In this document: positions 1 to 12,429 of the stretch, piece after piece
Position numbering within the stretch: the first letter of the stretch is position 1
How the letters are laid out: the number at the start of each line of letters is the position of its first letter
Assembly: GCA_017442765.1 (NCBI GenBank)
Contig: JAFRZC010000177.1
Location: 1 to 12,429 of the forward strand
Direction: 5' to 3'
DNA length: 12,429 bases
DNA from: Prevotella sp.
Lineage (GTDB): Bacteria > Bacteroidota > Bacteroidia > Bacteroidales > Bacteroidaceae
Translations under genes and position numbers: made by a program
The notes under the pieces: model-generated
The model's database searches: none
Told to the model about the DNA's origin: nothing
The model's input: only the letters and a program-made list of their open reading frames with translations

Positions 1-1937
1 GCCTCCAGCAGTTCTTCAGCTCTGCTGGTCCAGGGACGCTTGCCGAAGATCTTCTCCACATCCTCAGCGAAGATCACCTCACGGTCGACGAGCAACTGTG
101 CCAATTGTGCGTGTCCTTCCTTGTGTTCTGTCAGGATATTCTTGGCGCGCTCATATTGTTCGTTGATCATGCGCAGCACTTCGTCGTCCATAATCTTCGC
201 CGTCGTCTCTGAGTATGGCTTCTGGAACTGGTATTCCGCATTGTTGTAATAGCAGATGTTGGGGAGCTTCTCGCTCATACCGGCAAACGCGATCATACCG
301 TAGGCCTGCTTGGTGACGCGCTCCAGATCGTTCATGGCACCTGTTGAGATATGACCCACGAAGAGCTCCTCGGCAGCGCGACCTCCGAGCAGGGAGCACA
401 TCTCGTCGAGCATGGCTTCCTTCGTCTGGAGTACACGCTCCTCAGGCAGATACCAGGCAGCACCAAGCGCCTGACCACGGGGTACGATCGAGACCTTCAC
501 CAGCGGATTGGCAAACTCCGTGAACCACGAGATGGTGGCGTGACCTGCCTCGTGGATGGCGATGGAGCGCTTCTCGGCCTGCGTCATCACCTTAGTCTTC
601 TTCTCAAGACCTCCTATGATACGGTCTACGGCATCGAGGAAGTCCTGCTTCTGTACTGTCTGCGAGTTATGGCGGGCAGCAATCAGGGCTGCCTCATTAC
701 AAACGTTGGCGATATCGGCACCAGAGAAACCTGGTGTCTGACGGGCGAGGAAGTCGATGTCCACGCTGTCGTCGGTCTTCACAGGCTTCAGATGTACTTT
801 GAATACTTCCTTACGCTCATTGAGGTCAGGCAGGTCAACGTGGATCTGACGATCGAAGCGGCCAGCACGCAGCAGCGCAGAGTCGAGCATATCGGCACGG
901 TTCGTGGCAGCTAGGATAATCACACCAGAGTTGGTGCCGAAACCGTCCATCTCTGTAAGCAGGGCATTCAGCGTGTTTTCACGTTCATCATTGCCACCCA
1001 TAGCGGGATTCTTGGAACGGGCACGGCCTACGGCATCGATCTCGTCGATGAAGATGATGCAGGGTGCCTTGCCCTTGGCCTGATGGAATACGTCGCGCAC
1101 ACGGCTGGCACCAACTCCGACAAACATTTCCACGAAATCGCTGCCGCTCATCGAGAAGAACGGTACGCCAGCCTCACCGGCCACAGCTTTGGCCAACAGT
1201 GTCTTACCCGTCCCCGGAGGCCCTACGAGCAGGGCACCCTTGGGTATCTTTCCGCCCAGGTCGGTATAGCGTTTCGGGTTCTTCAGGAACTCCACAATCT
1301 CCTGCACCTCCTGCTTCGCTCCAGCCTGCCCGGCTACGTCCTTGAAAGTGATCTTCAGGTCGTCGGCCTTTTCGTAGAGCTTGGCCTTCGACTTGCCCAC
1401 GTTGAAGATTCCACCCGGGCCTCCTGAGCCACCCATGCGACCCATGAGCAGATACATGAGCAGGAAAAAGAAGATAATCGGCGAGAAGTTGATGAGCAGG
1501 CTGATAAGGTCGTTGCCGCCCTTGTTCTCGAAGTCGAAGTCGCTGATTTTATGCTCGGCCATGGCCTGAGCGAGATATTTCTCCAATTCATCGACCGAGC
1601 CGTATTCCACTTCCACGGCAGGGCTTTTTCCCGTTTGCTGTGTGGACTGTCCGAACACGTCGCGGATGTGCTTGGGCTTCACGTACATGTAGAGCTTGCC
1701 GTCGCTCTTGTTCACCACCACGCGGTCGGCATAACCCTTGGCCATGTAGTCTTTGAACTTGGTGTACGAGACTTCTTTCTTCATCGTCACGCCGGAGGCT
1801 ACGCTGTTGCCCGAGTCGGTGAAGAAGAACACGGCCAGCGAGATGAGGATGAGTACATAGAGCCACCCCATGTTGAAGCGGGGCATCTTGGGGTCTTTGT
1901 TCGGTTGTTGCGGATTATTCGGTTGTTGATTTGCCAT
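1..1937 (-). CDS. ftsH: ATP-dependent zinc metalloprotease FtsH (3' end cut by window edge)
   Basis: FtsH is a membrane-anchored AAA+ protease that extracts and degrades unneeded or damaged membrane and cytosolic proteins. The 645 visible codons begin at ATG 1935-1937, and only the C-terminal tail is missing. Two membrane segments are visible, at about residues 24-40 and 144-165, flanking a periplasmic domain. They are followed by a glycine-rich linker, the Walker A motif GPPGTGKT (239-246), Walker B IIFIDEID (294-301), the pore motif MFVGVG (271-276), the second region of homology ending in GRFDRQ (359-364) and the zinc motif HEAGH (462-466). The third zinc ligand is probably D537 in [11 protein letters not shown]. 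All catalytic elements are intact, so the enzyme should be active. The N-terminus is rich in N, Q and P ([13 protein letters not shown]). The gene starts 13 bases after rsfS stops, so the two are probably one transcript. Confidence 0.98.
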
Positions 1938-1950
1938 AACTTTTCACTTA

Positions 1951-2307
1951 TCACGTTTCACTTATCTCTTCTATCTCTGCGTCCTGCCAGAGATTTTCCA
2001 AATCGTAGAACTCGCGCAACTCGGGCACGAAGATGTGTACGATGACGTCGGTATAGTCGATGGCCACCCACTGTGCCCGCTCCAGCCCAACGACGTGAGC
2101 CGGTTTCTCGTGCAACTGCTCGCGCACGATGTCGCCTACCGACTCGGCAATGGCTTCTACCTGCGTGGGCGAGTTGCCCTGACAGATTACGAAATAGTGG
2201 GCTATCGTTCCCTCTATTTGGCTGAGGTCGGCCACTACGATGCGCTGACCTTTCTTCTCTTGTATTCCTTCTACAATTTTCTTTACGATTTCTTTAGCTG
2301 TGTTCAT
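1951..2307 (-). CDS. rsfS: Ribosomal silencing factor RsfS
   Basis: RsfS (formerly YbeB/RsfA, related to mitochondrial MALSU1) binds ribosomal protein uL14 and blocks joining of the two subunits, reducing translation in poor nutrient conditions. The protein is 118 residues, the usual size. It shows the family core: the VVADLSQIEGTIAHYFVICQGNSPTQV segment (about residues 24-50), which corresponds to the usual D-YFVI-TGNS pattern, and the later WVAIDYTDVIVHIF strand-turn-strand. The start is the ATG at 2305-2307, preceded by an A-rich leader. The gene is first in a pair with ftsH, an order I know from other Bacteroidales. A promoter -7 box lies about 60 bases upstream. The C-terminus is acidic. 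Confidence 0.95.
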   Translation of the reverse strand: MNTAKEIVKKIVEGIQEKKGQRIVVADLSQIEGTIAHYFVICQGNSPTQVEAIAESVGDIVREQLHEKPAHVVGLERAQWVAIDYTDVIVHIFVPELREFYDLENLWQDAEIEEISET

Positions 2308-2367
2308 TCTGTTGTTTTTACAAACTCCTATATTTCTTTGGTTTATATAAACCTTTTATTTGAACTG

Positions 2368-2375
2368 CAAAGATA
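2368..2375 (-). promoter_or_regulatory. Promoter -7 box for rsfS-ftsH
   Basis: Read on the minus strand this is TATCTTTG, a full match to the Bacteroidetes -7 consensus TAnnTTTG. No clean TTTG stands 19-20 bases upstream; the best is TATG at 19 bases. It lies 60 bases before the rsfS start with no terminator in between, so it most likely drives rsfS-ftsH. Confidence 0.6.
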
Positions 2376-2446
2376 CGTTTTTTTAGCATGAAAACATAAA
2401 AAAAGATTGAATAATAAGATTTTTTTGCAAAAAAGTGACTGAAAAA

Positions 2447-2477
2447 GTTGGTAATTCAAATTTTTTGTCTAACTTTG
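2447..2477 (+). promoter_or_regulatory. Promoter of tRNA-Gln
   Basis: GTTG at 2447-2450, a 19-base spacer, then TAACTTTG at 2470-2477. This fits the Bacteroidetes pattern TTTG/TTG-N19-TAnnTTTG. Transcription would start near 2483, leaving a 5' leader of about 35 bases on the precursor tRNA. Confidence 0.8.
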
Positions 2478-2518
2478 CATCCGCTTAACCGCTGGGAGTG
2501 TGTTTTGCAACCCATGAT

Positions 2519-2589
2519 TGGGGTATGGTGTAATGGTAACACTACAGATTCTGGTCCTGTCATTCTTGGTTCGAGTCCGAGTACCCCAA
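2519..2589 (+). tRNA. tRNA-Gln (anticodon CTG)
   Basis: The 71-base sequence folds as a cloverleaf. The acceptor stem is TGGGGTA pairing with TACCCCA, the D arm is GTG-TAATGGTAA-CAC, and the anticodon arm is ACAGA-TTCTGGT-CCTGT with CTG at positions 34-36. The variable loop is CATT, the T arm is CTTGG-TTCGAGT-CCGAG, and the discriminator base is A. The anticodon stem has one non-Watson-Crick pair (A31-C39). The CCA end is not encoded and must be added by the CCA-adding enzyme. The T-A first acceptor pair is typical of glutamine tRNAs. It decodes CAG codons. Confidence 0.95.
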
Positions 2590-2592
2590 CAG

Positions 2593-2636
2593 AAGTGATT
2601 GCCGAGTTGTTGAGAATCAACGCTCGGCAATCACTT
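2593..2636. terminator. Long hairpin after tRNA-Gln, probable transcript end
   Basis: A perfect 14-bp stem (2593-2606 with 2623-2636) encloses a second 5-bp stem (GTTGA with TCAAC). It starts four bases after the tRNA. Only a short TTT follows, so it is a weak match to a classical intrinsic terminator; it may instead define the 3' end during tRNA processing. Confidence 0.55.
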
Positions 2637-2672
2637 TCTCATTGGCTTTGTCAGAGCTTAGCTTTCGCCATG

Positions 2673-2732
2673 TGAAAGACCGTCTTTCGCGGAAAATTCT
2701 CTAGGGAATTTCTTACGAAAGACGGTCTTTCA
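2673..2732. repeat. Nested palindrome with GAAAGAC/GTCTTTC arms
   Basis: Two perfect 17-base inverted arms (2673-2689 and 2716-2732) form a hairpin. Each arm is itself a palindrome, GAAAGAC-C-GTCTTTC. The centre holds a further AAATTC/GAATTT stem. It lies between the convergent tRNA-Gln and DUF349 genes and could act as a bidirectional terminator, or be a copy of a dispersed palindromic repeat. The same heptamers recur at 9218-9376. Confidence 0.7.
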
Positions 2733-2753
2733 GAATGTCGTTAAGAATGAATA

Positions 2754-5258
2754 CTATTCCTCAGGCTTATTTTCTTCTTCTGCTGGAGCCTCAGTCTCAG
2801 CCTCAGGAGTTTCTTCTACCTTGGGCTCTTCAGCCACTGTCTCTTCTGGTTCGGGAGTTTCTTCCGCTTTCGGCTCCTCGGCGGGTGTAGCTTCAGGTGC
2901 ACTCTCCTCAGCCTTGGGTGCCTCTACCTCGGCTTTGGGTTCTTCTGCCTTTGTCTCTTCGACTTTAGGCTCTTCCTCTTTCGGCTCGGCGCTCTGCTGG
3001 TCGATGGCCTTGATCTTCTGATAGAGCAGCTCGCAGTCGTCTTTAAGTTTCTGCACCTTGCGGTTGAGCTCGTCGATGAGGGAGTTGCCTTTCTTCGATG
3101 CGGCGTTGAGGAAGCCGAGGTTGTTCTCGTAGGTCTGTATCTCCTGTTTCATCTGCTCGTAGCGGCGCATGAGCCGGCCGCGCTCGTCGAGCAGTGCGTC
3201 TTCTCCGCGCTTGGCCATGTTCTTCAGGCTGTTCTTGAAGTTGTCGAGACGACGGCGTTGGGTGGAGATGTTCAGTTCCTTATAGATGCGGTCGAGCACT
3301 TCGCGGTATTCCTTATAGAGCTTGTCCTTGTCGCGGAAGGGCACATGGCCGATGGCGTTGTATTGCTCGGTAAGCTGATGAACGCGCTCTTTGGCATCCT
3401 CGGTGGCATTCTCCAAGAGTTCCTTTAGTTGTGCGATGATGCCGCGCTTCTGTTTCAGGTTTTCTTTTTCCTCGTTGCGTGTGCCTGCCGTGGCGACGTT
3501 GCGTGCCTCGAAGAAGGTGTTGCAGGCTTCGAGAAACTGTGCCCAGAGCTGGTCGCCGAGTTTCTTGGGCACGGCTCCGATGGTCTTCCATTCTTTCTGC
3601 AAGGCCACGAACTTGTCGCTTGTGGACCGCCATTCGGTGGAGTCTTTCAGTGCCTGTGCCTGCTCAATGAGACGGCGCTTATGGTCGGCATTCTCGGCGA
3701 ACTGTTGTTTCATGTTCTTGAAGTACTCGCCTTTCTTGGTGAAGAACTGGTCGCAGGCTGCACGGAAGCGTTCGAAGATTTTGACGTTCATTTTCTGCGG
3801 TGCGAAGCCGATGGTCTTCCACTCGTTTTGTATCTCGATAATCTCTTTGGTGCGTTTGTCCCAGTCGCTGGCGGTTTTGATTTCTTGTGCCACGATGGCT
3901 TCCACCTGTTCGCAGAGTGCGGTCTTGCGCTGCAGGTTCTCTTCCTCCTTGGCGCGAAGGGTCTCGAAATGCTGCTGATGACGCTTGTTAATGACGGTCG
4001 AGGCGGCCTTGAAACGTGTCCAGATCTGCTCGCGCAGGTCTTTGGCTACGGGACCGGTCTCACGATACTGCTGGTGGAGCTCCTGCAACTGGTGGAAGGC
4101 ACTGATGACATCGGGCTCGTCGGCCAGTTTCTCGGCGGCCTCGCATAAGCGTGTCTTTGCCTCAAGGTTTTTCTTGAAGTCGTATTCGCGTGCCTCGATG
4201 TTGAGTTTGAGCAGGTCGTAGAATTGTTCTACGTGGTGCTGGTAGTTGCGCCATAGCTCGCTGGCATTCTCTGCGGGCACGGCACGTATCTCGCGCCATT
4301 GCTGTTGCAGGGCCTTGAAATCTTGATAGGCTTTGTTGGCCTCGTCGGGCGAGGTGGCGAGGGCTTTGATTTTCTCAATGATGTCGAGCTTCTTTTTCAG
4401 GTTTTCCTGTTTCTCGGCTTCCTGCTCTTGGAAGAGCTTGGCACGGCGTTCGCGTATGATGCCCATCTCGGCCTTGAAGGCTTCTTCTGCCGGGTCGGGT
4501 GTGATTTGATAGGTTGCCGGGTCGCCACCGGCCTCGAGATATTTGCGCTGTTGCTCTTCGCGTTCGGCCAGATGCATCTTGTAGAAGAGGGTCTTCAGGA
4601 AGTCAACCTCTGATTTTTGCGGGGCCTCATCGCCATGGGCTATCTCTGTGATGCGCTCAAGTACCTCCTTTTTGTTGTTGTAGATTTTTTTCTCCTCAGT
4701 TTTTTCCTCTGCGGGAGCTTCCTCTGCAGTCGGTTCCTCGGCGGGAGTCTCCTCAACGGGAGCTTCCTCAACGGGAGCTTCCTCAACGGGAGTTTCCTCC
4801 GCAGCCGGTTCTTCTGCGGGAGTTTCCTCAACGGGAGTTTCCTCAACGGGAGCTTCCTCAACGGGAGTTTCCTCAACGGGAGTTTCCTCCGCAGCCGGTT
4901 CTTCTGCGGGAGTCTCCTCAATGGGAGTCTCCTCTGCAGCCCGGTCCTCGGCGGGAGTCTCCTCAACGGGGGCTTCCTCAACGGGAGTTTCCTCCGCAGC
5001 CGGTTCTTCTGCGGGGGTCTCCTCAACGGGAGCTTCCTCTGCAGCCGGTTCTTCTGTGGGAGTCTCCTCAACGGGGGCTTCCTCCGCAGCCGGTTCCTCG
5101 GCGGGAGCCTCCTCTTCCGGCGGAGTTGTTTCTACGGATTGATTGACTACTTCAGGGGAGTCTTCGGGAGCTGTTTGCTGTGCTTGCTCGGCAAGTTCCT
5201 CTGTGTTGTTCACTTCGTTTGTTACCTGCTGGAGGTCTTTTTCTTGAGAGTCCATCAT
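2754..5258 (-). CDS. DUF349 repeat protein with long acidic pentapeptide-repeat N-terminus
   Basis: This 834-residue protein has five DUF349 units at about residues 313-350, 386-430, 473-518, 549-590 and 625-663. They are recognised by the repeated W/Y-x-x-I/T-G-x-x-P...LWxxFxxxxxxFF pattern (for example [18 protein letters not shown]). DUF349 proteins are helical, coiled-coil-rich and of unproven biochemical function. A helical region (about 664-756) and an acidic E/P/A/K tail (757-834) follow. Residues 48-186 are about 28 tandem pentapeptides of the P-V/A-E-E-T/A/P type, and this part is highly charged and surely disordered. There is no signal peptide, so it should be cytosolic. GTG at 5264 and ATG at 5255 are alternative starts; I chose the ATG at 5258. 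A promoter and a hairpin-bearing leader lie upstream. The gene converges on tRNA-Gln. Confidence 0.93.
4701..5117 (-). repeat. 15-bp coding minisatellite in the DUF349 gene
   Basis: About 28 tandem 15-base units encode P[VA]EE[TAP]. They form higher-order blocks, with alternating [10 protein letters not shown] runs and PAEEPAAEE blocks, several of which are near-identical at DNA level (for example around 4790-4900 and 4980-5060). All variation keeps the reading frame, since the unit is a multiple of three. The array length is likely to vary between strains through slippage or recombination. It also produces long open frames on the other strand, which are artefacts. Confidence 0.92.
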
Positions 5259-5343
5259 GTTCACGGTTTAGGCGTTAATGATTTTTGTTTCTTTGTGGGA
5301 ACGGCCGGGTCGGCCATTTCCCCATTCAATACCAATTAAAGTG

Positions 5344-5375
5344 CAAACTTAATAAAAAAACGTGATTTCTCCAAA
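5344..5375 (-). promoter_or_regulatory. Promoter of the DUF349 gene, overlapping the corA terminator
   Basis: On the minus strand TTTG (5375-5372), a 20-base spacer and TAAGTTTG (5351-5344) make a full Bacteroidetes promoter. The -33 box falls inside the loop of the terminator hairpin at 5356-5390. Transcription would begin near 5338, giving a leader of about 80 bases. That leader carries a GC-rich hairpin (5297-5322) and a possible 16-codon ORF (5275-5325). Confidence 0.75.
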
Positions 5376-5390
5376 TAAAATCACGTTTTT
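5356..5390 (-). terminator. Intrinsic terminator of corA
   Basis: A perfect 13-bp stem, AAAAACGTGATTT pairing with AAATCACGTTTTT, with a 9-base loop. On the minus strand it begins 16 bases after the corA stop and ends in a run of seven T. Confidence 0.85.
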
Positions 5391-5405
5391 CGTTATATTT
5401 TTTTC

Positions 5406-6332
5406 TCAAAGCAGTCGTTTGAAGCGCAATATGCCCCACGAAACGCCCGAAACGACGACAGAGATGATGAGTGCCGCTATGAATCCGAAGCGCGATGTCT
5501 CCATACCGTTGATGAGGTTCATGCCGAAGAGCGAGGCGATGAGCGTGGGGAACATCATGATGATGGAGACCGAGGTGAGTGTACGCATCACGGTGTTCAT
5601 ATTGTTGTTGATGATGCTGGAGTAGGTGTCCATCGTCGATTCGAGGATGTTGGAATAGATGTTTGCCGTCTCGCGGGCCTGTGACATCTCGATGCTGACA
5701 TCTTCGATGAGGTCGGCATCGAGCTCATCGACTTGCAGTTTGAACTTCAGTTTGGCCAGCAGGTTCTCGTTGCCTCGGATGGATGTGACGAAATAGGTCA
5801 GCGAGTCTTGCAGCCGGCTGAGTCCGATGAGGCTTTCGTTGTTCACGTTGTGGTCGAGATTGCGCTTGGCCTTGTCGATGAGCGTGTTGATTTGCTTGAG
5901 CCGTTTCAGATACCACACGGCAGCCGAATAGAAAAGGCGGAAGGTCATATCGACATAGTCGGTGAAGCCCACGGCGCGTTTCTGCTGGTAGCTGACGAAG
6001 TCGATCATCATGTTTGTCTCGAAGAAGCATACGGTGATGGTCACGTCGCGTTTGTGGATGATACCGAGGGGCACCGTCGTGTAGGGTGTGCGCGAGCGGA
6101 TTTCCTTCACGTATGGGATGCGCAGGATGACGAGCATCCAGCCGTCATCGTACTCGTAGCGGGCTCGCTCGTCGGTATCGCTGATGTCGCTGATGAAATA
6201 GTCGGGAATGTTGAACTGCTCCTCAAGCTCTTGTCGGTCTTCCTCTGTGGGACACGTCACTTGTACCCAGCAACCGGGCTCCCACTCCTTGATGGCTTTT
6301 AAGCCACCGGCAAAGTTCCAAAATGTCTTCAT
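5406..6332 (-). CDS. corA: CorA-family divalent cation (Mg2+/Co2+) transporter
   Basis: CorA proteins are pentameric inner-membrane channels that admit Mg2+ (and Co2+ or Ni2+) and are gated by Mg2+ bound to the cytoplasmic domain. This 308-residue protein has the usual build: a large cytoplasmic alpha/beta N-terminal domain (1 to about 150), a long stalk helix (about 150-250), TM1 ending in the signature GMN (270-272, in LFGMNLINGME), and TM2 (about 281-303) with a short basic tail RFKRLL. The usual YGMNF is LFGMNL here, which is acceptable for the family. ATG 6330-6332 is preceded by GGAGGA at 8 bases, an unusually strong Shine-Dalgarno-like sequence for this phylum. The gene has its own promoter, a leader of about 145 bases and a terminator, so it is probably monocistronic. 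Substrate preference (Mg, Co or Zn) cannot be settled from sequence. Confidence 0.93.
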   Translation of the reverse strand: MKTFWNFAGGLKAIKEWEPGCWVQVTCPTEEDRQELEEQFNIPDYFISDISDTDERARYEYDDGWMLVILRIPYVKEIRSRTPYTTVPLGIIHKRDVTITVCFFETNMMIDFVSYQQKRAVGFTDYVDMTFRLFYSAAVWYLKRLKQINTLIDKAKRNLDHNVNNESLIGLSRLQDSLTYFVTSIRGNENLLAKLKFKLQVDELDADLIEDVSIEMSQARETANIYSNILESTMDTYSSIINNNMNTVMRTLTSVSIIMMFPTLIASLFGMNLINGMETSRFGFIAALIISVVVSGVSWGILRFKRLL

Positions 6333-6480
6333 TTTGCTAATCCTCCGTTGATAAAAAGGGGAAGCGGCCCGAGGATTAGCTGCTTGGCAGACTTGTCCTC
6401 ACGCCTTACTCTGTCTAAAGTCTTCCGCGTGATAATCGTCCATTTTCTTGTTTGTTAAAAACCGTTTTAAAATTTTCGGG
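6333..6480 (-). promoter_or_regulatory. Structured corA leader with upstream ORF and sequestered Shine-Dalgarno
   Basis: The leader runs from a predicted start near 6476 to the corA ATG. In transcript order it holds a 14-codon ORF (6443-6399), a 6-bp stem AGACTT/AAGTCT (6423-6418 with 6394-6389) overlapping the end of that ORF, a small CTGC-CAA-GCAG hairpin, and a perfect 10-bp stem GCTAATCCTC/GAGGATTAGC (6380-6371 with 6345-6336). The 3' arm of the last stem contains most of the GGAGGA that lies 8 bases before the corA start, so pairing should hide it. The layout resembles a translational control element; no known riboswitch class is recognised. Confidence 0.5.
6399..6443 (-). CDS. Possible leader peptide upstream of corA (14 codons)
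   Basis: ATG to TGA encodes MDDYHAEDFRQSKA. It lies wholly within the predicted corA 5' leader, about 33 bases after the predicted transcript start, with an A-rich stretch (AACAAACAAGAAA) before the ATG, as is common at Bacteroidetes translation starts. Four of the first eight residues are acidic. No homologue is recognised and translation is unproven. Its case rests on position and on its overlap with the leader stem. Confidence 0.35.
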   Translation of the reverse strand: MDDYHAEDFRQSKA

Positions 6481-6482
6481 TG

Positions 6483-6513
6483 CAAAGATAATAAAAAAAC
6501 GGCGGGAAGCAAA
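6483..6513 (-). promoter_or_regulatory. Promoter of corA
   Basis: On the minus strand TTTG (6513-6510), 19 bases, TATCTTTG (6490-6483): an exact Bacteroidetes consensus promoter. It begins only 6 bases after the pepD terminator hairpin ends. Confidence 0.85.
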
Positions 6514-6519
6514 ATTTTT

Positions 6520-6575
6520 CTGGGATTTTTTCTGGGATTCGCTGGCTATTAGCTGAATCCCGGAAAAAATCCCAG
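6520..6575 (-). terminator. Long hairpin terminator of pepD
   Basis: Arms 6520-6540 and 6555-6575 pair over 21 bases with one mismatch and a 14-base loop. Each arm contains an imperfect internal direct repeat (CTGGGATTTTTT then CTGGGATTC). On the minus strand the hairpin starts 11 bases after the pepD stop and is followed by AAAAATTTT rather than a clean T run. Confidence 0.7.
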
Positions 6576-6586
6576 TTCAAGTGTGT

Positions 6587-8047
6587 TTACTTCTCAGGTA
6601 TGGTCTCGAGTGCTTTCTTGAGCAGTTCCCAGAAGGGTGCGACGGTCTTGATGAGTGCGCGCTCGGTAGTGGTGTGCGGGCTCTTCATCGTGGGACCGAG
6701 GGAGACGATGTCCAAGTGCGGGTATGTCCCAAGGATGACCGAGCACTCCAGTCCGGCATGGTCAACCTGTATGATGCCGTCTTCACCGTTCTGCTCCTTG
6801 TAGATGTTGAGCAGGTGATGCAGGATTTCGCTGTCGGGATTGGGATCCCAGCCGCCGTAGCTGCCCGACTTCTTCACCTTCATGCCGGCCATGTTGAAAC
6901 AGGCCTCAAGCATATCGACGATGTACATCTTCATGTCTTCGCGGCTGGAGCGTGCCAGTATCTTGACTTCGGCCTTGCCGCCTTCGATATCGATAATGGC
7001 GAGGTTTGAACTGGTCTCCACCACTGAGGGGTAGGCGGGAATCATGCGCACCACGCCATCGTGACAGGCCAGGATGGCACTGACCAGATTGTCCTGAATC
7101 TCTAAGGGCAGTTGTCTCTCCGGCATCTCCACTTCTTCCACAGTGAACTCAATGCCGCTCTCAATGCCCTTGTACTCGTCGATGAAGTCTGCACGCCAGT
7201 CGTCGGCCACCTGTTTGATGGCATCCACCAGGTCCTTCGGCAGTGTCAGCACCGCCTCGGCCTTGAAGGGGATGGCGTTGCGCATGTTGCCGCCGTGCCA
7301 GCTCACCAGGCGGGCGTAGTCGATCTCGATAACGTCACGCAGGAAGCGTGCCATCATCTTGTTGGCATTGCCTCGTCCCTCGTGGATTTCCAGTCCCGAG
7401 TGCCCGCCGCGCAGACCTTTCAGCGTCACCTTGACGGCGGCATCCTCTTCGGGGTTGGTCTCCTCGTCCTTGAACTCAAGTGTGGCGGTCACGTCGATGC
7501 CACCGGCTGAGCCGATGACGAACTTGCCCCAAGTCTCAGAATCAAGGTTGAGCAGAATGTCGCCTTCGAGTATGTCAGACTCCAGGTCGTTGGCACCGTA
7601 CATGCCCGTCTCTTCGTCGGCGGTGATGAGGGCCTCTATGGGACCGTGCTTCAAGGTCTTGTCTTCCATGACGGCCATGATGGCAGCCACGCCCAGTCCG
7701 TTGTCGGCACCGAGTGTCGTGCCCTTGGCCTTCACCCATTCGCCGTCTATCCAGGGCTGGATGGGGTCGGTCTCGAAATTATGCGTCGATTCGGGAGTCT
7801 TCTGCGGCACCATGTCCATGTGGGCCTGCAGGATGACACCCTTGCGGTTCTCCATCCCTGGCGATGCGGGCTTGCGCATGATTACGTTACGGGCCTCGTC
7901 GATGAAGGCTTCTACACCGGCCTGCTTGCCGAAGTCGAGCAGGAATTGTTGTACTTTCTCAAGGTGTCCGCTCGGACGCGGCACCTGTGTGAGTGCATAG
8001 AAGTTTCTCCAGATGCACTGCGGGTTCAGGTTTTGAATTTCGTTCAT
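6587..8047 (-). CDS. pepD: Aminoacyl-histidine dipeptidase PepD (M20C family)
   Basis: PepD (carnosinase-like, also called beta-alanyl-histidine or Xaa-His dipeptidase) hydrolyses dipeptides in the cytosol with two metal ions. The 486-residue length is normal for the family. The metal and catalytic residues of M20 enzymes are visible: HMDMV (H76, D78), GADNGLG (bridging D115), ADEETG (general base E145 and metal ligand E146), NLDSE (D169), GGHSG (H216, in the lid domain) and SPHTTTE near the C-terminus (H458). No signal peptide is seen. The start at ATG 8045-8047 gives the normal N-terminus MNEIQNLNPQCIWRNFYALTQVPRPSG, including the usual I-PRPSG segment. It lies 42 bases after the flippase gene without a promoter consensus between them, so it is probably the second gene of an operon. 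A long hairpin follows it. Confidence 0.96.
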   Translation of the reverse strand: MNEIQNLNPQCIWRNFYALTQVPRPSGHLEKVQQFLLDFGKQAGVEAFIDEARNVIMRKPASPGMENRKGVILQAHMDMVPQKTPESTHNFETDPIQPWIDGEWVKAKGTTLGADNGLGVAAIMAVMEDKTLKHGPIEALITADEETGMYGANDLESDILEGDILLNLDSETWGKFVIGSAGGIDVTATLEFKDEETNPEEDAAVKVTLKGLRGGHSGLEIHEGRGNANKMMARFLRDVIEIDYARLVSWHGGNMRNAIPFKAEAVLTLPKDLVDAIKQVADDWRADFIDEYKGIESGIEFTVEEVEMPERQLPLEIQDNLVSAILACHDGVVRMIPAYPSVVETSSNLAIIDIEGGKAEVKILARSSREDMKMYIVDMLEACFNMAGMKVKKSGSYGGWDPNPDSEILHHLLNIYKEQNGEDGIIQVDHAGLECSVILGTYPHLDIVSLGPTMKSPHTTTERALIKTVAPFWELLKKALETIPEK

Positions 8048-8089
8048 AGAATCTATTGGCGTTATGTAAAACGATTAAATACGATAAGA

Positions 8090-9100
8090 CTATTCTCGTT
8101 CCCCCGTACCTTCGCGCCTCCGTACCTTCGATGTAAACGCCAGTGCTACCCACGCATAGATGCCGAGGAGGACGACGAGGAGGGTCTGCACGGTGTGGAC
8201 GATGAGCACGAAGTTGAGCGCGTCATCGGACGGCACGGCGTAGAGGATGAGCATGGTCTTCACGGCGAAGTGCCAGGGGCCGGCACCGTTGGGCGTGGGC
8301 ACGATGACGGCGATTGAGCCCACGATGAACGTCACGAGGGCGCACGACAGCCCGAGCCCTTCGGTGGCCGTGAAGCAGAAGAACGTCAGGTAGTAGTGCA
8401 GGAAATAGCACAGCCAGATGCCTACGGTGAACACGAGGAACAAAGGCACGTTCCTCACGCCGCGCAGCGAGATAATGCCCTGCCAGATACCGCCGAGCGT
8501 GGCTTTCACCTTATTATATATAGATAGGCGGCGGAGCAGCCACCATATAAGCAGCAGCGCAGCCAGCCCGCAGACGGATGTGACGATGTAGCCCGTCGTG
8601 GTGAACGAGCTCAGGATGCCGCTGAGGCTGGTGCCCGTCTGGTCGAAGAAGGTGCGGAAGACGGTAATCTGCGACAGCAGGGTCAGTGCGGTAATCGCCA
8701 GGACGAGCAGCGTGTCGATGGCGCGTTCGGTGACCACCGTTCCCAGCGCTTTCGAGAACGACACCCCGTCCCACCGCTTCAGCACGCCGCAACGGGCAAA
8801 CTCGCCGATGCGTGGAATGACCAGGCTCACCGCATACGACAGGAACACCGCGTTCAGGCAGGTTGATATGCGCGGACGCTCGCCCAGCGGCTCCAGCGTC
8901 TGCCGCCACCGCCATCCACGGAAAGCCTGCGCCAGTATGCCGAACGGAAACGACAGCAGCATCCACTCCCACCGCATCTCGTGCAGCAGCACCTCGCGCA
9001 CCCGCGCAAAGTCGAACTCGCGGTACATCCACCAGAGTATCGTCCCGCCCAGCACGAGCGAGAGCACCACCTTCAATATGTCACCTGCCGGTTTCTTCAT
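8090..9100 (-). CDS. Lysylphosphatidylglycerol-synthase-TM / UPF0104 family membrane protein (putative flippase)
   Basis: This 336-residue multispanning membrane protein has about eight hydrophobic helices. It shows the landmarks of the UPF0104/YbhN-like group related to the membrane half of MprF: RGWRWR (61-66), PRIGEFARCGVLKRW (96-110, the counterpart of P-R-GE-xRp), an ERAID motif (125-129) and PTPNGAGPWHF (268-278). MprF flips aminoacyl-phosphatidylglycerol. For stand-alone members like this one the substrate is unknown, and glycolipid or isoprenoid-linked substrates have been suggested. No catalytic lysyl-transfer domain is present. It precedes pepD in a likely operon, with no obvious functional link. 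The last 13 residues (SKVRRREGTGERE) are basic/acidic and coded by a short direct repeat. A -7 box lies about 23 bases upstream. Confidence 0.88.
   Translation of the reverse strand: MKKPAGDILKVVLSLVLGGTILWWMYREFDFARVREVLLHEMRWEWMLLSFPFGILAQAFRGWRWRQTLEPLGERPRISTCLNAVFLSYAVSLVIPRIGEFARCGVLKRWDGVSFSKALGTVVTERAIDTLLVLAITALTLLSQITVFRTFFDQTGTSLSGILSSFTTTGYIVTSVCGLAALLLIWWLLRRLSIYNKVKATLGGIWQGIISLRGVRNVPLFLVFTVGIWLCYFLHYYLTFFCFTATEGLGLSCALVTFIVGSIAVIVPTPNGAGPWHFAVKTMLILYAVPSDDALNFVLIVHTVQTLLVVLLGIYAWVALAFTSKVRRREGTGERE
8104..8130. repeat. Direct repeat at the 3' end of the flippase gene
   Basis: The 11-mer CCGTACCTTCG occurs at 8104-8114 and again at 8120-8130, a 16-base period. It encodes part of the hydrophilic C-terminal tail of the membrane protein, suggesting the tail arose from a low-complexity repeat. 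Confidence 0.6.
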
Positions 9101-9122
9101 GCCGTATGATAACTTCAGAATG

Positions 9123-9130
9123 CAAACTTA
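9123..9130 (-). promoter_or_regulatory. Promoter -7 box for the flippase-pepD operon
   Basis: On the minus strand TAAGTTTG, matching TAnnTTTG, 22 bases before the ATG at 9100. No TTTG is found 19-20 bases upstream, so the -33 element is poor. The resulting leader would be only about 15 bases. Confidence 0.55.
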
Positions 9131-9217
9131 CATATTTTTTTTGAATTATGCGACGTAAAAGCAAAAAATTACGATTTCTTAAATGTCATCCGCACGACTT
9201 CTTCCCCCGCACAACAC

Positions 9218-9376
9218 GAAAGCCAGCCTTTCACAACCCGAACACTTGTCTTTCACAAAGTAATATATATTATATTACTCGGTAATATATATACTATTAC
9301 TAAGTAATATATATACTTTTACTTGGTAATATATATTATATTACTTTGTGAAAGTTATCCTTTCGCATCACGAAAG
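9218..9376. repeat. AT-rich array of four 22-bp palindromic units with inverted flanks
   Basis: Four units start at 9260, 9282, 9304 and 9326, exactly 22 bases apart. Units 1 and 4 are GTAATATATATTATATTAC, a perfect palindrome with 8-bp arms and a TAT centre. Units 2 and 3 are variants. Spacers are TCG, TAA and TTG. The array is framed by CTTTCACAAA (9250-9259) and its reverse complement (9345-9354). A further CTTTCACAA sits at 9228, also 22 bases before the next copy. Small GAAAG/CTTTC dyads lie outside on both sides (9218-9232 and 9360-9376). It occupies the middle of the 459-base spacer between the divergent flippase and 28-codon genes. Apart from this array and the two promoters I see nothing else in that spacer. 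Confidence 0.9.
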
Positions 9377-9467
9377 ACGTTTTTCTCCTGTGGCAAAGCT
9401 GTTTACTGCCATGTTCTTGACCCGAGTCAATAAAACGGCGACAATTCTCCGAATGTCGGCAGAAAAC

Positions 9468-9498
9468 TTTGGCGCTTGGCAGAAAAGACATATCTTTG
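9468..9498 (+). promoter_or_regulatory. Promoter of the 28-codon gene
   Basis: TTTG (9468-9471), 19 bases, TATCTTTG (9491-9498): an exact match to the Bacteroidetes promoter. Transcription would begin near 9504, about 56 bases before the ATG. Confidence 0.85.
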
Positions 9499-9559
9499 CA
9501 CCGTCTTAGAGAAGACACAGGATAACAAGTTTAATTTAAAAAAGAAAGGTAAAAAGATT

Positions 9560-9646
9560 ATGGTAACATTACTGTCTCTGGCCGTAGTTGCAGCCATGGT
9601 TGCACAGGCCATTCATTTGGGCAATAAAATCGACATGCAGCGCTAA
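9560..9646 (+). CDS. Small hydrophobic peptide, 28 residues, own transcription unit
   Basis: I do not recognise this protein. It starts MVTLLSLAVVAAMVAQAIHL and ends GNKIDMQR, i.e. one hydrophobic segment of about 20 residues followed by a short polar tail with net positive charge, consistent with a single-span inner-membrane peptide. The leader AAAAAGAAAGGTAAAAAGATT before the ATG is typical A-rich Bacteroidetes initiation sequence. A consensus promoter at 9468-9498 and a hairpin terminator at 9701-9748 bracket it, with no other ORF between them, which is the strongest evidence that it is a real gene (or that the RNA itself matters). It could be a small membrane regulator or a type I toxin-like peptide, but no CAAAnnTA (antisense -7 box) was found over it. 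Confidence 0.6.
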   Translation: MVTLLSLAVVAAMVAQAIHLGNKIDMQR

Positions 9647-9700
9647 GTCGTTGTGCCCCACCTCTTTTAAGAGAAAGTTTATAGTGTGAAAAAATAGGTG

Positions 9701-9748
9701 ATGGCGGAGCAGGCAATAGTCTGGTCCGCCATTTTCTTTCATTTTTTT
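9701..9748 (+). terminator. Intrinsic terminator of the 28-codon gene
   Basis: ATGGCGGA (9701-9708) pairs with TCCGCCAT (9725-9732), with an inner CAG/CTG. A T-rich tail including TTTT, TTT and seven T follows. Confidence 0.8.
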
Positions 9749-9780
9749 CATCCCTCATCCTTCATCTTTCATCCTTTTTT
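9742..9780. repeat. TCATCC/TCATCT polypyrimidine repeat
   Basis: A short low-complexity run of TTCATC-type hexamers (TCATCCC TCATCC TTCATCT TTCATCC) directly after the terminator. No function is apparent. Confidence 0.6.
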
Positions 9781-9837
9781 GCTATCTTTGGCTGCGCCGA
9801 AGTTACTCCAGCTCGGCATAAAAATGAACAAGTTTAT

Positions 9838-9869
9838 TTTGTTCTGCGCTCGTTTTTTTCGTAACTTTG
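9838..9869 (+). promoter_or_regulatory. Upstream rsmA promoter
   Basis: TTTG (9838-9841), 20 bases, TAACTTTG (9862-9869). This would give a leader of about 75 bases ahead of rsmA. Confidence 0.7.
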
Positions 9870-9911
9870 GCTTCGCCGAACTTACTGCGCACTCGGAAAA
9901 GCTCAAATAAA

Positions 9912-9943
9912 TTTGGCTTTCCACTCGTTTTTTCGTAACTTTG
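9912..9943 (+). promoter_or_regulatory. Downstream rsmA promoter, nearly touching the start codon
   Basis: TTTG (9912-9915), 20 bases, TAACTTTG (9936-9943). The rsmA ATG begins only 5 bases after the -7 box, so a transcript from here would be leaderless or start within a base or two of the ATG. Confidence 0.65.
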
Positions 9944-9948
9944 CGGCG

Positions 9949-10842
9949 ATGAAGCGTGTAAGACCAAAAAAAAACCTGGGGCAGCATTTCCTGGTTGACC
10001 TCGATGTTGCCCGCCGTATTGCCGATACGGTCGATGCGTGTCCCGACCTGCCCGTGTTGGAGATAGGCCCGGGCATGGGTGTGCTCACGCAATATCTGAT
10101 AGAAAAGCCGCGACCCTTCAAGGCTGTCGAGATCGACCGCGAGAGCGTGGCATGGCTGAAGGAGAATCTGCAGCCCCCTCCCATCCTTCCCCCGAGGGGG
10201 AGGGGCACAGAACCTCCCGGGCAATCGGACTCCTCCCCCTCGGGGGGAGGATGGGAGGGGGCTTCCTGGCTCATCGAGGGCGACTTCCTCCGCATGGACC
10301 TCGCGCAGGTGTTCGACGGCCAGCCCTTCGTGCTCACGGGTAACTATCCCTACGACATCTCCTCGCAGATCTTCTTCAAGATGCTCGACAACCGCGACCT
10401 CATCCCCTACTGCACGGGTATGATACAGCATGAGGTGGCACTGCGCATGGCCTCGCAGCCCGGGACAAAGCAGTATGGCATCCTCTCCGTCCTCATGCAG
10501 GCATGGTACGACGTGGAATATCTTTTCACCGTCGAGCCCGACGTGTTCAACCCGCCGCCAAAGGTGCAGAGCGCGGTCATCCGCCTCACCAGCAACAAGG
10601 TCACAGACCTCGGTTGCGACGAGCGGCTTTTCCGTCGCGTCGTGAAGACCGTCTTCAACCAACGGCGCAAAATGCTGCGCGTCTCCCTCCGCCAGCTCCT
10701 GCCAGCCGATTCTCCACTCTTTACTCTCCACTCTCCTCTCCTCTCTCCCCTCATGACGGCCCGCCCCGAACAACTCACCATCGCCCAGTTCGTGGAACTG
10801 ACAAATTGGGTGGAGAAAAATATGACAGCTGATGGAAAATAA
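9949..10842 (+). CDS. rsmA: 16S rRNA (adenine1518/1519-N6)-dimethyltransferase RsmA with in-frame repeat insertions
   Basis: RsmA (KsgA) dimethylates two adjacent adenines in the 3' hairpin of 16S rRNA using S-adenosylmethionine, a late step in 30S assembly. The 297 residues show the family motifs: KKNLGQHFL (7-15), SAM-binding VLEIGPGMGVLTQYL (36-50), AVEIDRES (59-66), IEGDFLRMDL (109-118) and the catalytic TGNYPYDISS (130-139, the NLPY-type motif). ATG 9949 gives the standard MKRVRPKKNLGQ start; an in-frame TTG at 9913 would add residues coded by the promoter repeat and is rejected. Residues 76-105 are a proline/glycine-rich insert coded by a palindromic element, and residues 255-268 come from a pyrimidine repeat. 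Without the insert the length (about 267) is normal. The frame is intact, so the protein is probably functional. It overlaps the next gene by 11 bases. Confidence 0.96.
   Translation: MKRVRPKKNLGQHFLVDLDVARRIADTVDACPDLPVLEIGPGMGVLTQYLIEKPRPFKAVEIDRESVAWLKENLQPPPILPPRGRGTEPPGQSDSSPSGGGWEGASWLIEGDFLRMDLAQVFDGQPFVLTGNYPYDISSQIFFKMLDNRDLIPYCTGMIQHEVALRMASQPGTKQYGILSVLMQAWYDVEYLFTVEPDVFNPPPKVQSAVIRLTSNKVTDLGCDERLFRRVVKTVFNQRRKMLRVSLRQLLPADSPLFTLHSPLLSPLMTARPEQLTIAQFVELTNWVEKNMTADGK
10172..10263. repeat. 92-bp palindromic element inserted in frame in rsmA
   Basis: Two 32-base inverted arms (10172-10203 and 10232-10263) match with a single mismatch and enclose a 28-base loop. Each arm carries a smaller C5-GA-G5-type palindrome. 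It is far richer in G and C runs than the flanking gene. It encodes the Pro/Gly-rich residues 76-105 without a stop codon and without shifting the frame. Its place, between the second and third strands of the methyltransferase fold, is a loop likely to tolerate insertion. Confidence 0.92.
10711..10752. repeat. CTCCACTCT pyrimidine repeat in the 3' part of rsmA
   Basis: A 42-base almost pure pyrimidine tract on the plus strand with CTCCACTCT at 10712 and 10726 (period 14) and CTCTCCTCTCC after it. It encodes residues 255-268 (SPLFTLHSPLLSPL) just before the conserved MTARPEQL segment. Confidence 0.65.
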
Positions 10843-11329
10843 GGCGCAACAATATGATACTCTTTGCCGGCAGATTGCGGCGTTGGTGAAGGGCGAGAGC
10901 GACGAGACGGGTGTGATGGCCAATGTGGCTGCGGCGTTGAAGGAGGCGTTTCCCGAACGGTTCTTCTGGGTTGGGTTTTACAGAATCACCCATAGCCCCT
11001 CTCTCCTTGCGCGAGAGGGTGAGGCTGTCTTGCGACTCGGGCCGTTCCAGGGGCCGGTGGCCTGTTACGAGATTTCCTTTGGCAAGGGGGTGTGTGGCAC
11101 GGCATGGAAGGAACGGAAGACCATCGTGGTGCCCGATGTGGAGCAGTTCCCCGGACATATTGCCTGCTCGTCGCTAAGCCGCTCTGAAATTGTCGTACCC
11201 GTCTTTGACAGGCAGGGTGAGGTGCAGGCCGTACTCGACATTGATTCGCGCGACCTTGATGCCTTTGACGAAACTGACCGCCTTTTTCTCGAACGTATAG
11301 TGAAAACCATGGCTGGCGAAATATATTAG
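10832..11329 (+). CDS. msrC: Free methionine-(R)-sulfoxide reductase (GAF-domain fRMsr)
   Basis: fRMsr reduces free L-methionine-(R)-sulfoxide to methionine in the cytosol, using cysteines that are recycled by thioredoxin. The 165 residues form one GAF domain. The three family cysteines are all present in their usual contexts: GPVACYEI (C78), GKGVCGTAW (C88) and FPGHIACSSLS (C112, the likely catalytic one). The segments LGPFQGPVAC, VPDVEQFPGHIAC and VLDIDS are diagnostic. A segment of about 13 residues (53-65, around HSPSLLAREGE) between the YR-I strand and LRLGPFQG is extra relative to the family as I know it, and is coded by a hairpin-forming repeat. ATG 10832 overlaps the rsmA stop by 11 bases, so translation is probably coupled. 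A perfect-stem hairpin follows. Pairing with rsmA has no obvious metabolic reason. Confidence 0.93.
   Translation: MENKAQQYDTLCRQIAALVKGESDETGVMANVAAALKEAFPERFFWVGFYRITHSPSLLAREGEAVLRLGPFQGPVACYEISFGKGVCGTAWKERKTIVVPDVEQFPGHIACSSLSRSEIVVPVFDRQGEVQAVLDIDSRDLDAFDETDRLFLERIVKTMAGEIY
10988..11026. repeat. Short hairpin-forming segment inserted in frame in msrC
   Basis: CCCTCTC (10997-11003) pairs with GAGAGGG (11013-11019) around a 9-base loop. The segment covers the codons for the residues that look extra in the protein. A multiple-of-three length and absence of stops leave the enzyme intact. Confidence 0.5.
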
Positions 11330-11331
11330 AG

Positions 11332-11372
11332 TTGGCAGGAGTTTATGAGCCATGCCTGCAAACTCCTGCCAA
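11332..11372. terminator. Hairpin between convergent msrC and the small leftward gene
   Basis: TTGGCAGGAGTTT (11332-11344) pairs perfectly over 13 bases with AAACTCCTGCCAA (11360-11372), with a 15-base loop. It starts two bases after the msrC stop and lies 53 bases beyond the stop of the leftward gene. Neither side has a strong T run; it may serve both convergent transcripts. Confidence 0.55.
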
Positions 11373-11425
11373 TTCCTAAATATAAATGCCTGAGATGATA
11401 TGAAGTTTTTAGAACTTAATTCTTT

Positions 11426-11629
11426 TTAGTCATCCCATAGTTTACCGGGGGACCAGTTTATACCGTCTTCCCCATCGAGGAAGTCCAGGTCTTCGTCAAA
11501 GAAAGCCCTTTTAGCATCGCTTTCCTCGGGTGTCGTTCCTCCTGATATGGGTATGTTCATTCCTTGCATAATCTCAGAATATTTTGGGGTGATGATTTCC
11601 ATTAACGGTTTGATATATGCTTTTTTCAT
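11426..11629 (-). CDS. Small Bacteroidales protein of unknown function (MKKxYIKP...LWDD type)
   Basis: The 67-residue protein starts MKKAYIKPLMEIITP, has an ISGG at residues 28-31 and ends DGINWSPGKLWDD. The second half is strongly acidic (D and E runs) with an AKRAFF segment. Short proteins with an MKK-Y-x-P start, a central SG or SGG and an acidic Trp-containing end are common in Prevotella and Bacteroides, but I know no established function for them. No signal peptide or membrane segment is seen. It starts 12 bases after the stop of the upstream secreted-protein gene on the same strand, with an A-rich initiation region (AAATAAAAAGAACGTAGA), so it is almost certainly its operon partner. The SGG could be read as a double-glycine leader end, but that is speculation. 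Confidence 0.75.
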   Translation of the reverse strand: MKKAYIKPLMEIITPKYSEIMQGMNIPISGGTTPEESDAKRAFFDEDLDFLDGEDGINWSPGKLWDD

Positions 11630-11641
11630 TCTACGTTCTTT

Positions 11642-12429
11642 TTATTTAATGACTACTTTTTTTCCCTGATGAATATAAATGCCATGTTGCGGGCGGTCTG
11701 TGCGCACACCTTGCAGCGTATAATAAGACTGGTCTGTGATAATTGCCGTCTTGTCGGGTTGTATTTGCGAGATTGCGGTTGCTCCGGCATCGCTGTCAAG
11801 AAAGCTCATGGTGAAGACCTTTGCGCCAGAAGTGGTGGTATAGGTGCCGACCATACTTGCGGGCATTGACAGCCAGCATTTGTTGTAGGCAAGAGTCCCG
11901 TCGGCAGTGAAATATTTAAAATATCCGCTGTTCAGTCCCATATTGGTGTATTCAATGCCGTCTTTTGTCTCGGTCGTTCTTACTTTCGTGGCATCGGTGG
12001 CTGCCACTAAATAGTTTGTCTGAGTGGTTGTGGCATCTTCATTTTCTCCTATCCGGTAGGTGGCCGATGACCCCTCACCACCTTTTAGTATCACGCCAAC
12101 ATAGGTTTCATAGGCAATACCGTTGACAGTGTGCTGTCCTGTACGCGACGGTACGTACTCGCCTGCTGTCTTTCCTGAAACGGCAATCAGTTCCATGTTT
12201 GCCGTCCGTGTATCGCCCGACTGGGTTGCCGAGGAACATACGTATGCCTTCAGGTCAGAGGCAGACAGGTCGACATCAAAATCGCGTCCCATCGTTTTCA
12301 GTCCGCTGGCAGGCAGGGTGACGGGAATGTCGTAGGCAAAGCTGGTCATCGCATTCCACATATCGGCATTCTGATATACATTATTGTCGTAGGCGGTCTT
12401 TTTTATATAGACTATCGGAAATTGTGCTA
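11642..12429 (-). CDS. C-terminal part of a secreted or surface protein (5' end outside window)
   Basis: The frame is open from the right window edge to TAA at 11642-11644, about 262 codons, so the Met at 12361 is internal rather than a start. The visible part is rich in T, S, A, G and Y with a beta-sandwich-like composition. It contains an LPASGLKTMGRDFDVDLSAS-type stretch, LKAYVCSS, GVILKGGEG and NYLVAATDATKV, a pattern familiar from Prevotella exported proteins in which an LKAYVV strand and a G-VLLKG strand precede the C-terminus. The end, YYTLQGVRTDRPQHGIYIHQGKKVVIK, matches the short C-terminal module widespread on secreted Bacteroidales proteins and possibly linked to surface export. 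The substrate or role cannot be inferred because the N-terminal domains are missing. The small gene at 11426 follows 12 bases later. Confidence 0.85.
   Translation of the reverse strand, partial: AQFPIVYIKKTAYDNNVYQNADMWNAMTSFAYDIPVTLPASGLKTMGRDFDVDLSASDLKAYVCSSATQSGDTRTANMELIAVSGKTAGEYVPSRTGQHTVNGIAYETYVGVILKGGEGSSATYRIGENEDATTTQTNYLVAATDATKVRTTETKDGIEYTNMGLNSGYFKYFTADGTLAYNKCWLSMPASMVGTYTTTSGAKVFTMSFLDSDAGATAISQIQPDKTAIITDQSYYTLQGVRTDRPQHGIYIHQGKKVVIK

Follow-up and report, generated by a model that had tools for sequence, protein, structure and literature searches.

In-frame palindromic elements are best known from Rickettsia, and BrickBuilt is the name given to MITEs of Porphyromonas gingivalis. 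According to PMC3733652, groups other than Rickettsia also have intragenic REPs; REPs with GTAG or CGTC tags, the Rickettsia palindromic elements (RPEs) included, can sit in frame in genes, and two of the RPEs of R. conorii, RPE-4 and RPE-6, belong to the CGTC type. The same paper describes CGTC REPs as lacking a dedicated transposase and as reported from five phyla, Bacteroidetes among them; its text does not name Prevotella. Most REPs are described as intergenic in PMC3733652 and PMC6006769, and intragenic GTAG REPs are occasional, with uvrA, recB and UvrD/REP helicases among their hosts. A search of the open-access literature, which leaves most subscription journals outside, found no report of such an element in Prevotella or Bacteroidetes.

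The palindrome considered here lies in rsmA of a Prevotella species, on a stretch of 12,429 nucleotides (assembly GCA_017442765.1, contig JAFRZC010000177.1, positions 1 to 12,429, forward strand; hereafter the window). By description it resembles RPEs, in that short palindromes lie in frame in unrelated genes, housekeeping genes included, and add residues to their products; it also resembles the CGTC-type RPEs, for which no dedicated transposase is known. It differs from RPEs in host lineage and probably in sequence, in the absence of a CGTC tag, and in a unit made of a tag plus a hairpin that occurs singly or as an inverted doublet. Unit size, a hairpin beside an unpaired tag, and the occurrence of singles, inverted doublets and clusters are shared with GTAG REPs and REPINs as PMC3733652 and PMC6006769 describe them. 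Unlike these, the present element has no GTAG tag and no element-flanked RAYT (REP-associated Y1 transposase) among the 35 loci read, and more than half of its sites in one relative, G001, are intragenic, whereas REPs in those sources are mostly intergenic. CGTC REPs, as described in PMC3733652, likewise have in-frame intragenic copies without a dedicated transposase, but they carry a tag that the present arms lack. BrickBuilt MITEs (PMC4596501) share short repeats, inverted ends and the bacterial order; they are set apart by description, the present element having neither a target duplication nor a minisatellite core. In architecture the element matches REPs and REPINs, yet two of their defining marks are missing: the tag and, among the 35 loci read, the dedicated RAYT.

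Table 1. Positions and loci of the features discussed
Feature	Position or locus	Strand	Basis or remark
rsmA (ksgA), 16S rRNA adenine dimethyltransferase, intact, 297 codons + stop	9949..10842	+	ORF and Pfam profile
Left arm, one REP-like unit (outer GC-rich tag, then small hairpin)	10172..10203	+	Inverted-repeat and fold analysis
Spacer between arms, differs among copies	10204..10231	+	Copy comparison
Right arm, inverted copy of left arm	10232..10263	-	Inverted-repeat and fold analysis
Short degenerate arm-like hairpin, in frame in GAF-type gene (10832-11329)	10994..11026		Family membership by eye
Second hairpin family, copies	L013:5307-5348, L021:5307-5348, L029:540-563, L066:5259-5294, L074:5277-5330, L074:1640-1687		
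G001 in-frame copy, PrmC	L122		Profile-confirmed
G001 in-frame copy, CarB	L124		Profile-confirmed
G001 in-frame copy, PriA	L128		Profile-confirmed
G001 in-frame copies (two), glutamate synthase large subunit GltB	L129		Profile-confirmed
G001 in-frame copy, GAF-domain protein adjoining rsmA	L130		Profile-confirmed
G001 in-frame copy, UvrD-type helicase	L133		Profile-confirmed
G001 in-frame copy, LepA	L219		Profile-confirmed
G001 in-frame copies near C-terminus	L132, L134, L135, L138, L216, L221		Common terminal motif

The palindrome and the variable loop of RsmA

The product of the window's rsmA scores 160.4 bits against Pfam RrnaAD (cut-off 24) and, apart from one loop, is a normal member of the RsmA/KsgA family. 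An initial annotation had noticed 32-base inverted arms with one mismatch within the gene, and the analysis bears this out: two arms of 32 nt, 97% complementary, are separated by 28 nt. Folded as a single strand, the palindrome reaches z-scores of -6.85 as DNA and -7.68 as RNA against 200 dinucleotide shuffles, none of which folds as well. None of its six frames contains a stop. This openness is partly due to GC-richness, as 19 base shuffles out of 500 share it; eight other copies have three to six open frames. The sole match in the window at the Rfam gathering threshold is a tRNA at 2519-2589.

The same annotation took the palindrome for a 92-bp insertion in frame. The frame is indeed unbroken and free of stops, but a clean addition of 92 bp is ruled out because 92 is not divisible by 3. 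In the window and 80 loci (80 of 81 sequences parsed, L055 being the exception), the loop was taken from the EID.ES helix to the DFL strand; so measured, it has 54 residues in the window against a modal 27 in relatives (+27); with a slightly longer ruler it has 57, against 47 in P0002 and P0003 (+10). As the gain is only 27 or 10 residues, native loop codons must also have been lost or changed, and the loop residues beside the insert differ too. P0002 and P0003, which at 88% are the closest among the homologues listed, carry another insert at this loop; with other inserts in the closest homologues, an exact nucleotide-level empty site for rsmA was not recovered.

The loop is hypervariable across the relatives. 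Its length ranges from 25 to 86 residues, being 27 in 40 of the 80 parsed sequences and 33 or more, up to 86, in 30 of them, window included; many differing inserts appear at this place among the 120 homologous proteins listed. The orthologue alignment that the annotation had proposed thus reveals no conserved 30-residue segment, only the 27-residue loop in half of the sequences and different inserts in others. An inverted repeat is present in 9 of the 30 long loops (window, L004, L013, L021, L029, L050, L069, L074 and L078) and in none of the remaining 21, by a criterion reached by at most 2 of 60 shuffles that preserved base composition only. Insertion into a tolerant RsmA loop is well supported. 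In an AlphaFold2 model built from 50 sequences, residues 77-105 have pLDDT below 50 and lie between a helix (64-73) and the next strand, which retains the annotated position in a loop of the SAM-binding fold but replaces the first of the two strands said to border it with a helix. The segment is predicted to be disordered; two of the five models are good and three poor, with mean pLDDT from 76.6 (best) to 47.9.

Other repeats occur in the window and in its relatives. A second hairpin family, with degenerate heptamer-repeat arms around a conserved core (GAGAAT ... AATCTC), has five copies in frame in the rsmA loop and one elsewhere in L074 (Table 1); a looser match at L001:1499-1527 may be unrelated. 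Short heptamer tandem arrays stand before rsmA (9747-9776) and in its C-terminal part (10711-10752), where the array forms a second variable stretch of the RsmA protein. An AT-rich palindromic array at 9250-9354 consists of four copies of a 22-bp unit, and a similar AT-rich hairpin is found near the Y1 locus L113 of G001. An inverted repeat at 2673-2732, whose 30-nt arms are 83% complementary and directly adjoin each other, lies next to the end of the frame 2754-5264 and is possibly a terminator; within that frame, a long 15-bp-based tandem repeat (4704-5114) encodes a Glu/Pro/Ala-rich stretch.

Copies in related genomes

Copy counts come from the genomes of relatives and not from the window's own, so that dispersal is established in relatives only. 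The window element as query matches 8 of 12 relatives (E ≤ 0.01). In G001, the genome of locus L001, it finds single arms and full-length matches with E down to 1e-13. The window copy is 75-79% identical to the G001 copies over the full length, and these are up to 95-96% identical to each other over their full 95-101 bases, spacer included. Of 100 genomes sampled from the genus, 12 match, G001 included (E ≤ 1e-5; genomes rich in candidates scored on nine candidates only), and a G001 copy as query finds matches in 16 of 20 genomes picked for their candidates (E ≤ 1e-3). A sample of 147 other genomes from the phylum yields no match at E ≤ 1e-5, with a query that can miss diverged arms. Phage collections contain no match to the window element; plasmid collections yield a single Deinococcus record (E 6e-4 against a G001 copy), which is read as chance or convergence.

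Sites read number 22 in G001 and 25 in G065. Those of G001 are drawn from 25 sites in 24 stretches, of which L215, L218 and L220 fall below threshold; those of G065 come from 20 stretches, beyond which further matches exist. Raw match counts cover both strands and hence exceed the site numbers. This recurrence of the arms agrees with the dispersed element that had been annotated, and the presence and absence of copies among relatives suggests that the element is mobile.

The unit of the family is a single arm of about 32-36 nt, which has a GC-rich tag on the outside and a small hairpin next to it. Such units are found singly, in clusters, and in inverted pairs whose spacer varies. Two arms make up a palindrome of 91-96 bp at seven G001 sites (L122-L127, L135); an eighth two-arm site, the first in L129, has a left arm that has diverged, and the others are mostly single arms. 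Across 13 two-arm copies the arms start with (GA)AGCCCC, and neither a GTAG nor a CGTC tag is present at their ends. In the outer arms of these copies 95.2% of cells pair, with coordinated changes at two positions. Their covariation score exceeds that of all 500 shuffles; the count of pairs in which both partners have changed is not beyond the shuffles (192 of 500 as high).

Fourteen of the 22 G001 sites are in frame inside genes (Table 1), and the frame in which the element is read varies among its hosts. Gene families are profile-confirmed at nine loci, among them L138 (a rhamnosidase) and L134 (an M6 peptidase); L132 has no NCBIfam match, and the assignments of L135, L216 and L221 were made by eye. 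The terminal motif shared by the six proteins with copies near the C-terminus is one that we take to be typical of secreted proteins. In G065, only 1 of 25 sites is clearly intragenic (L231, an IGHMBP2-like helicase), with short open frames at a few others. Coding location is therefore not a general property of the family; among the other copies, which the annotation had suggested examining for in-frame bias, in-frame location is common in G001. In-frame survival is expected from selection; what is notable is the number of core genes that tolerate the element in G001.

The same host loops can be compared in relatives, with loci for LepA and CarB that are the best-matching ones and not a random sample. 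The LepA loop has 34 residues in 25 of 30 such loci against 41 in G001. It has 46 in L266, with an insert resembling another palindrome, and 41-43 in three other loci without an obvious element. For CarB, of which 28 of 30 loci were parsed, 23 have a loop of 31 residues against 66 in G001, where native loop residues are missing at the insert. Given these missing residues, and the other inserts in the closest homologues of rsmA, replacement instead of simple insertion is possible. The PrmC insert is retained in P0121 (98%) and P0122 (82%), whereas P0123 (73%) has a short remnant only; across the query and the 120 homologues listed, the PrmC loop has 27-86 residues, and heptamer-repeat peptides are also present. 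The arm-like hairpin in the window's GAF-type gene sits at the loop where L001 of G001 has an arm of the family. This loop has 31 residues in the window, 48 in L001 and 21 in three others, the gene being within the motif's reach in 5 of 81 sequences.

Explanations for the repeat and its movement

The preferred reading, to which we assign a probability of roughly 0.74, is that the window palindrome is a copy of a dispersed, REPIN-like repeat of the Prevotella lineage whose in-frame insertions survive in tolerant loops. If it were instead a genuine REPIN with a dedicated RAYT of the same genomes as its mover, the observed architecture of single units, inverted doublets and clusters would be expected; Y1-family matches do occur in 22 of 29 genomes searched, and a clear arm lies about 0.5 kb from the Y1 locus L119 (G007). 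However, among 35 Y1 loci read of 40 matches (three of the 40 below the family's cut-off), only L119 has a clear arm, placed by eye inside a neighbouring protein gene, and L201 has a weak one (E 0.007). L197, the sole Y1 locus of the match-rich G065, has no arm, hairpins of other kinds accompany several Y1 loci, with a GTAG tag at two (L116, L200), and the arms themselves lack this tag, all of which makes a dedicated RAYT unlikely. Adjacency to Y1 genes was rejected as proof of a REP-transposase pair, as the element does not serve as the flanking REP of any of the 35 loci. The GTAG-tagged hairpin arrays at L116 (G009) and L200 (G097) resemble canonical REP-transposase pairs within the genus. 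A MITE, derived by deletion from a DDE-transposase insertion sequence and retaining its terminal inverted repeats as arms, would account for inverted ends around a variable middle and for dispersed copies. A classical MITE is disfavoured by the absence of a detectable target duplication at twelve two-arm copies (sum 26, permuted mean 20.1; 292 of 2000 permutations reach this sum); one of the twelve, L223, has a 6-base AT-rich match. Moreover, single arms are as common as pairs and no carrier is seen in plasmid or phage collections, so this origin is very improbable.

Two further explanations concern what the inserts are. Some inserts do persist, since two PrmC homologues with 82% identity overall have the same insert peptide over 32 residues, and the RsmA segment might similarly have been domesticated as a functional part whose retention is selected. 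This is highly improbable for RsmA, since in the homologues listed this place is occupied by other inserts or a short loop, the segment is predicted to be disordered, and the frame through the element changes from gene to gene. The occurrence of other CCCTCCC-type palindromes in the same loops and genomes, together with the Deinococcus plasmid gene match, could indicate that there is no single family and that GC-rich low-complexity hairpins arose independently in each genome. The likeness of the G001 copies, which extends through the spacer, contradicts independent origin within that genome, and the full-length similarity of the window copy to them also argues against it, leaving this explanation the slightest of chances.

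A REPIN-like family, probably without its own transposase

The best reading of the present family is an orphan REP/REPIN-like family that behaves like RPEs in another lineage. One arm would be the unit, two units placed head to head would give the palindrome, and units would spread within genomes, with copies in some species mostly outside genes and in others often in coding DNA. Survivors in coding DNA would be the insertions that leave the frame intact and land in loops able to tolerate them. The rsmA copy would have lengthened, or taken the place of, the loop that follows the second helix of the SAM-binding fold, and would be translated as a Pro/Gly/Ser-rich, probably disordered segment, probably of no function for the enzyme. 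A hairpin in single-stranded form may be the intermediate of copying and insertion, a Y1/HUH enzyme may supply the activity in trans, and persistence may be neutral.

A broader proposal is tentative, and we rate it at somewhat less than an even chance. In Prevotellaceae, several unrelated hairpin and heptamer-repeat families may repeatedly enter the same few loops of core enzymes, clearly in RsmA and PrmC and more rarely in LepA and CarB. These loops would be shared landing pads and a standing source of new disordered segments, and the present family would be REPIN-like, without its own transposase, and in some species more often inside genes than outside.

RPE-like insertion is seen here in another lineage, in core enzymes of translation, replication and metabolism whose relatives have short loops at the same places. 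Comparison of sister species makes the tolerance, retention or loss of inserted protein segments testable. Repeat insertions may lie behind many of the length differences among Prevotella core proteins, and would then affect phylogenies, structure models and annotation.
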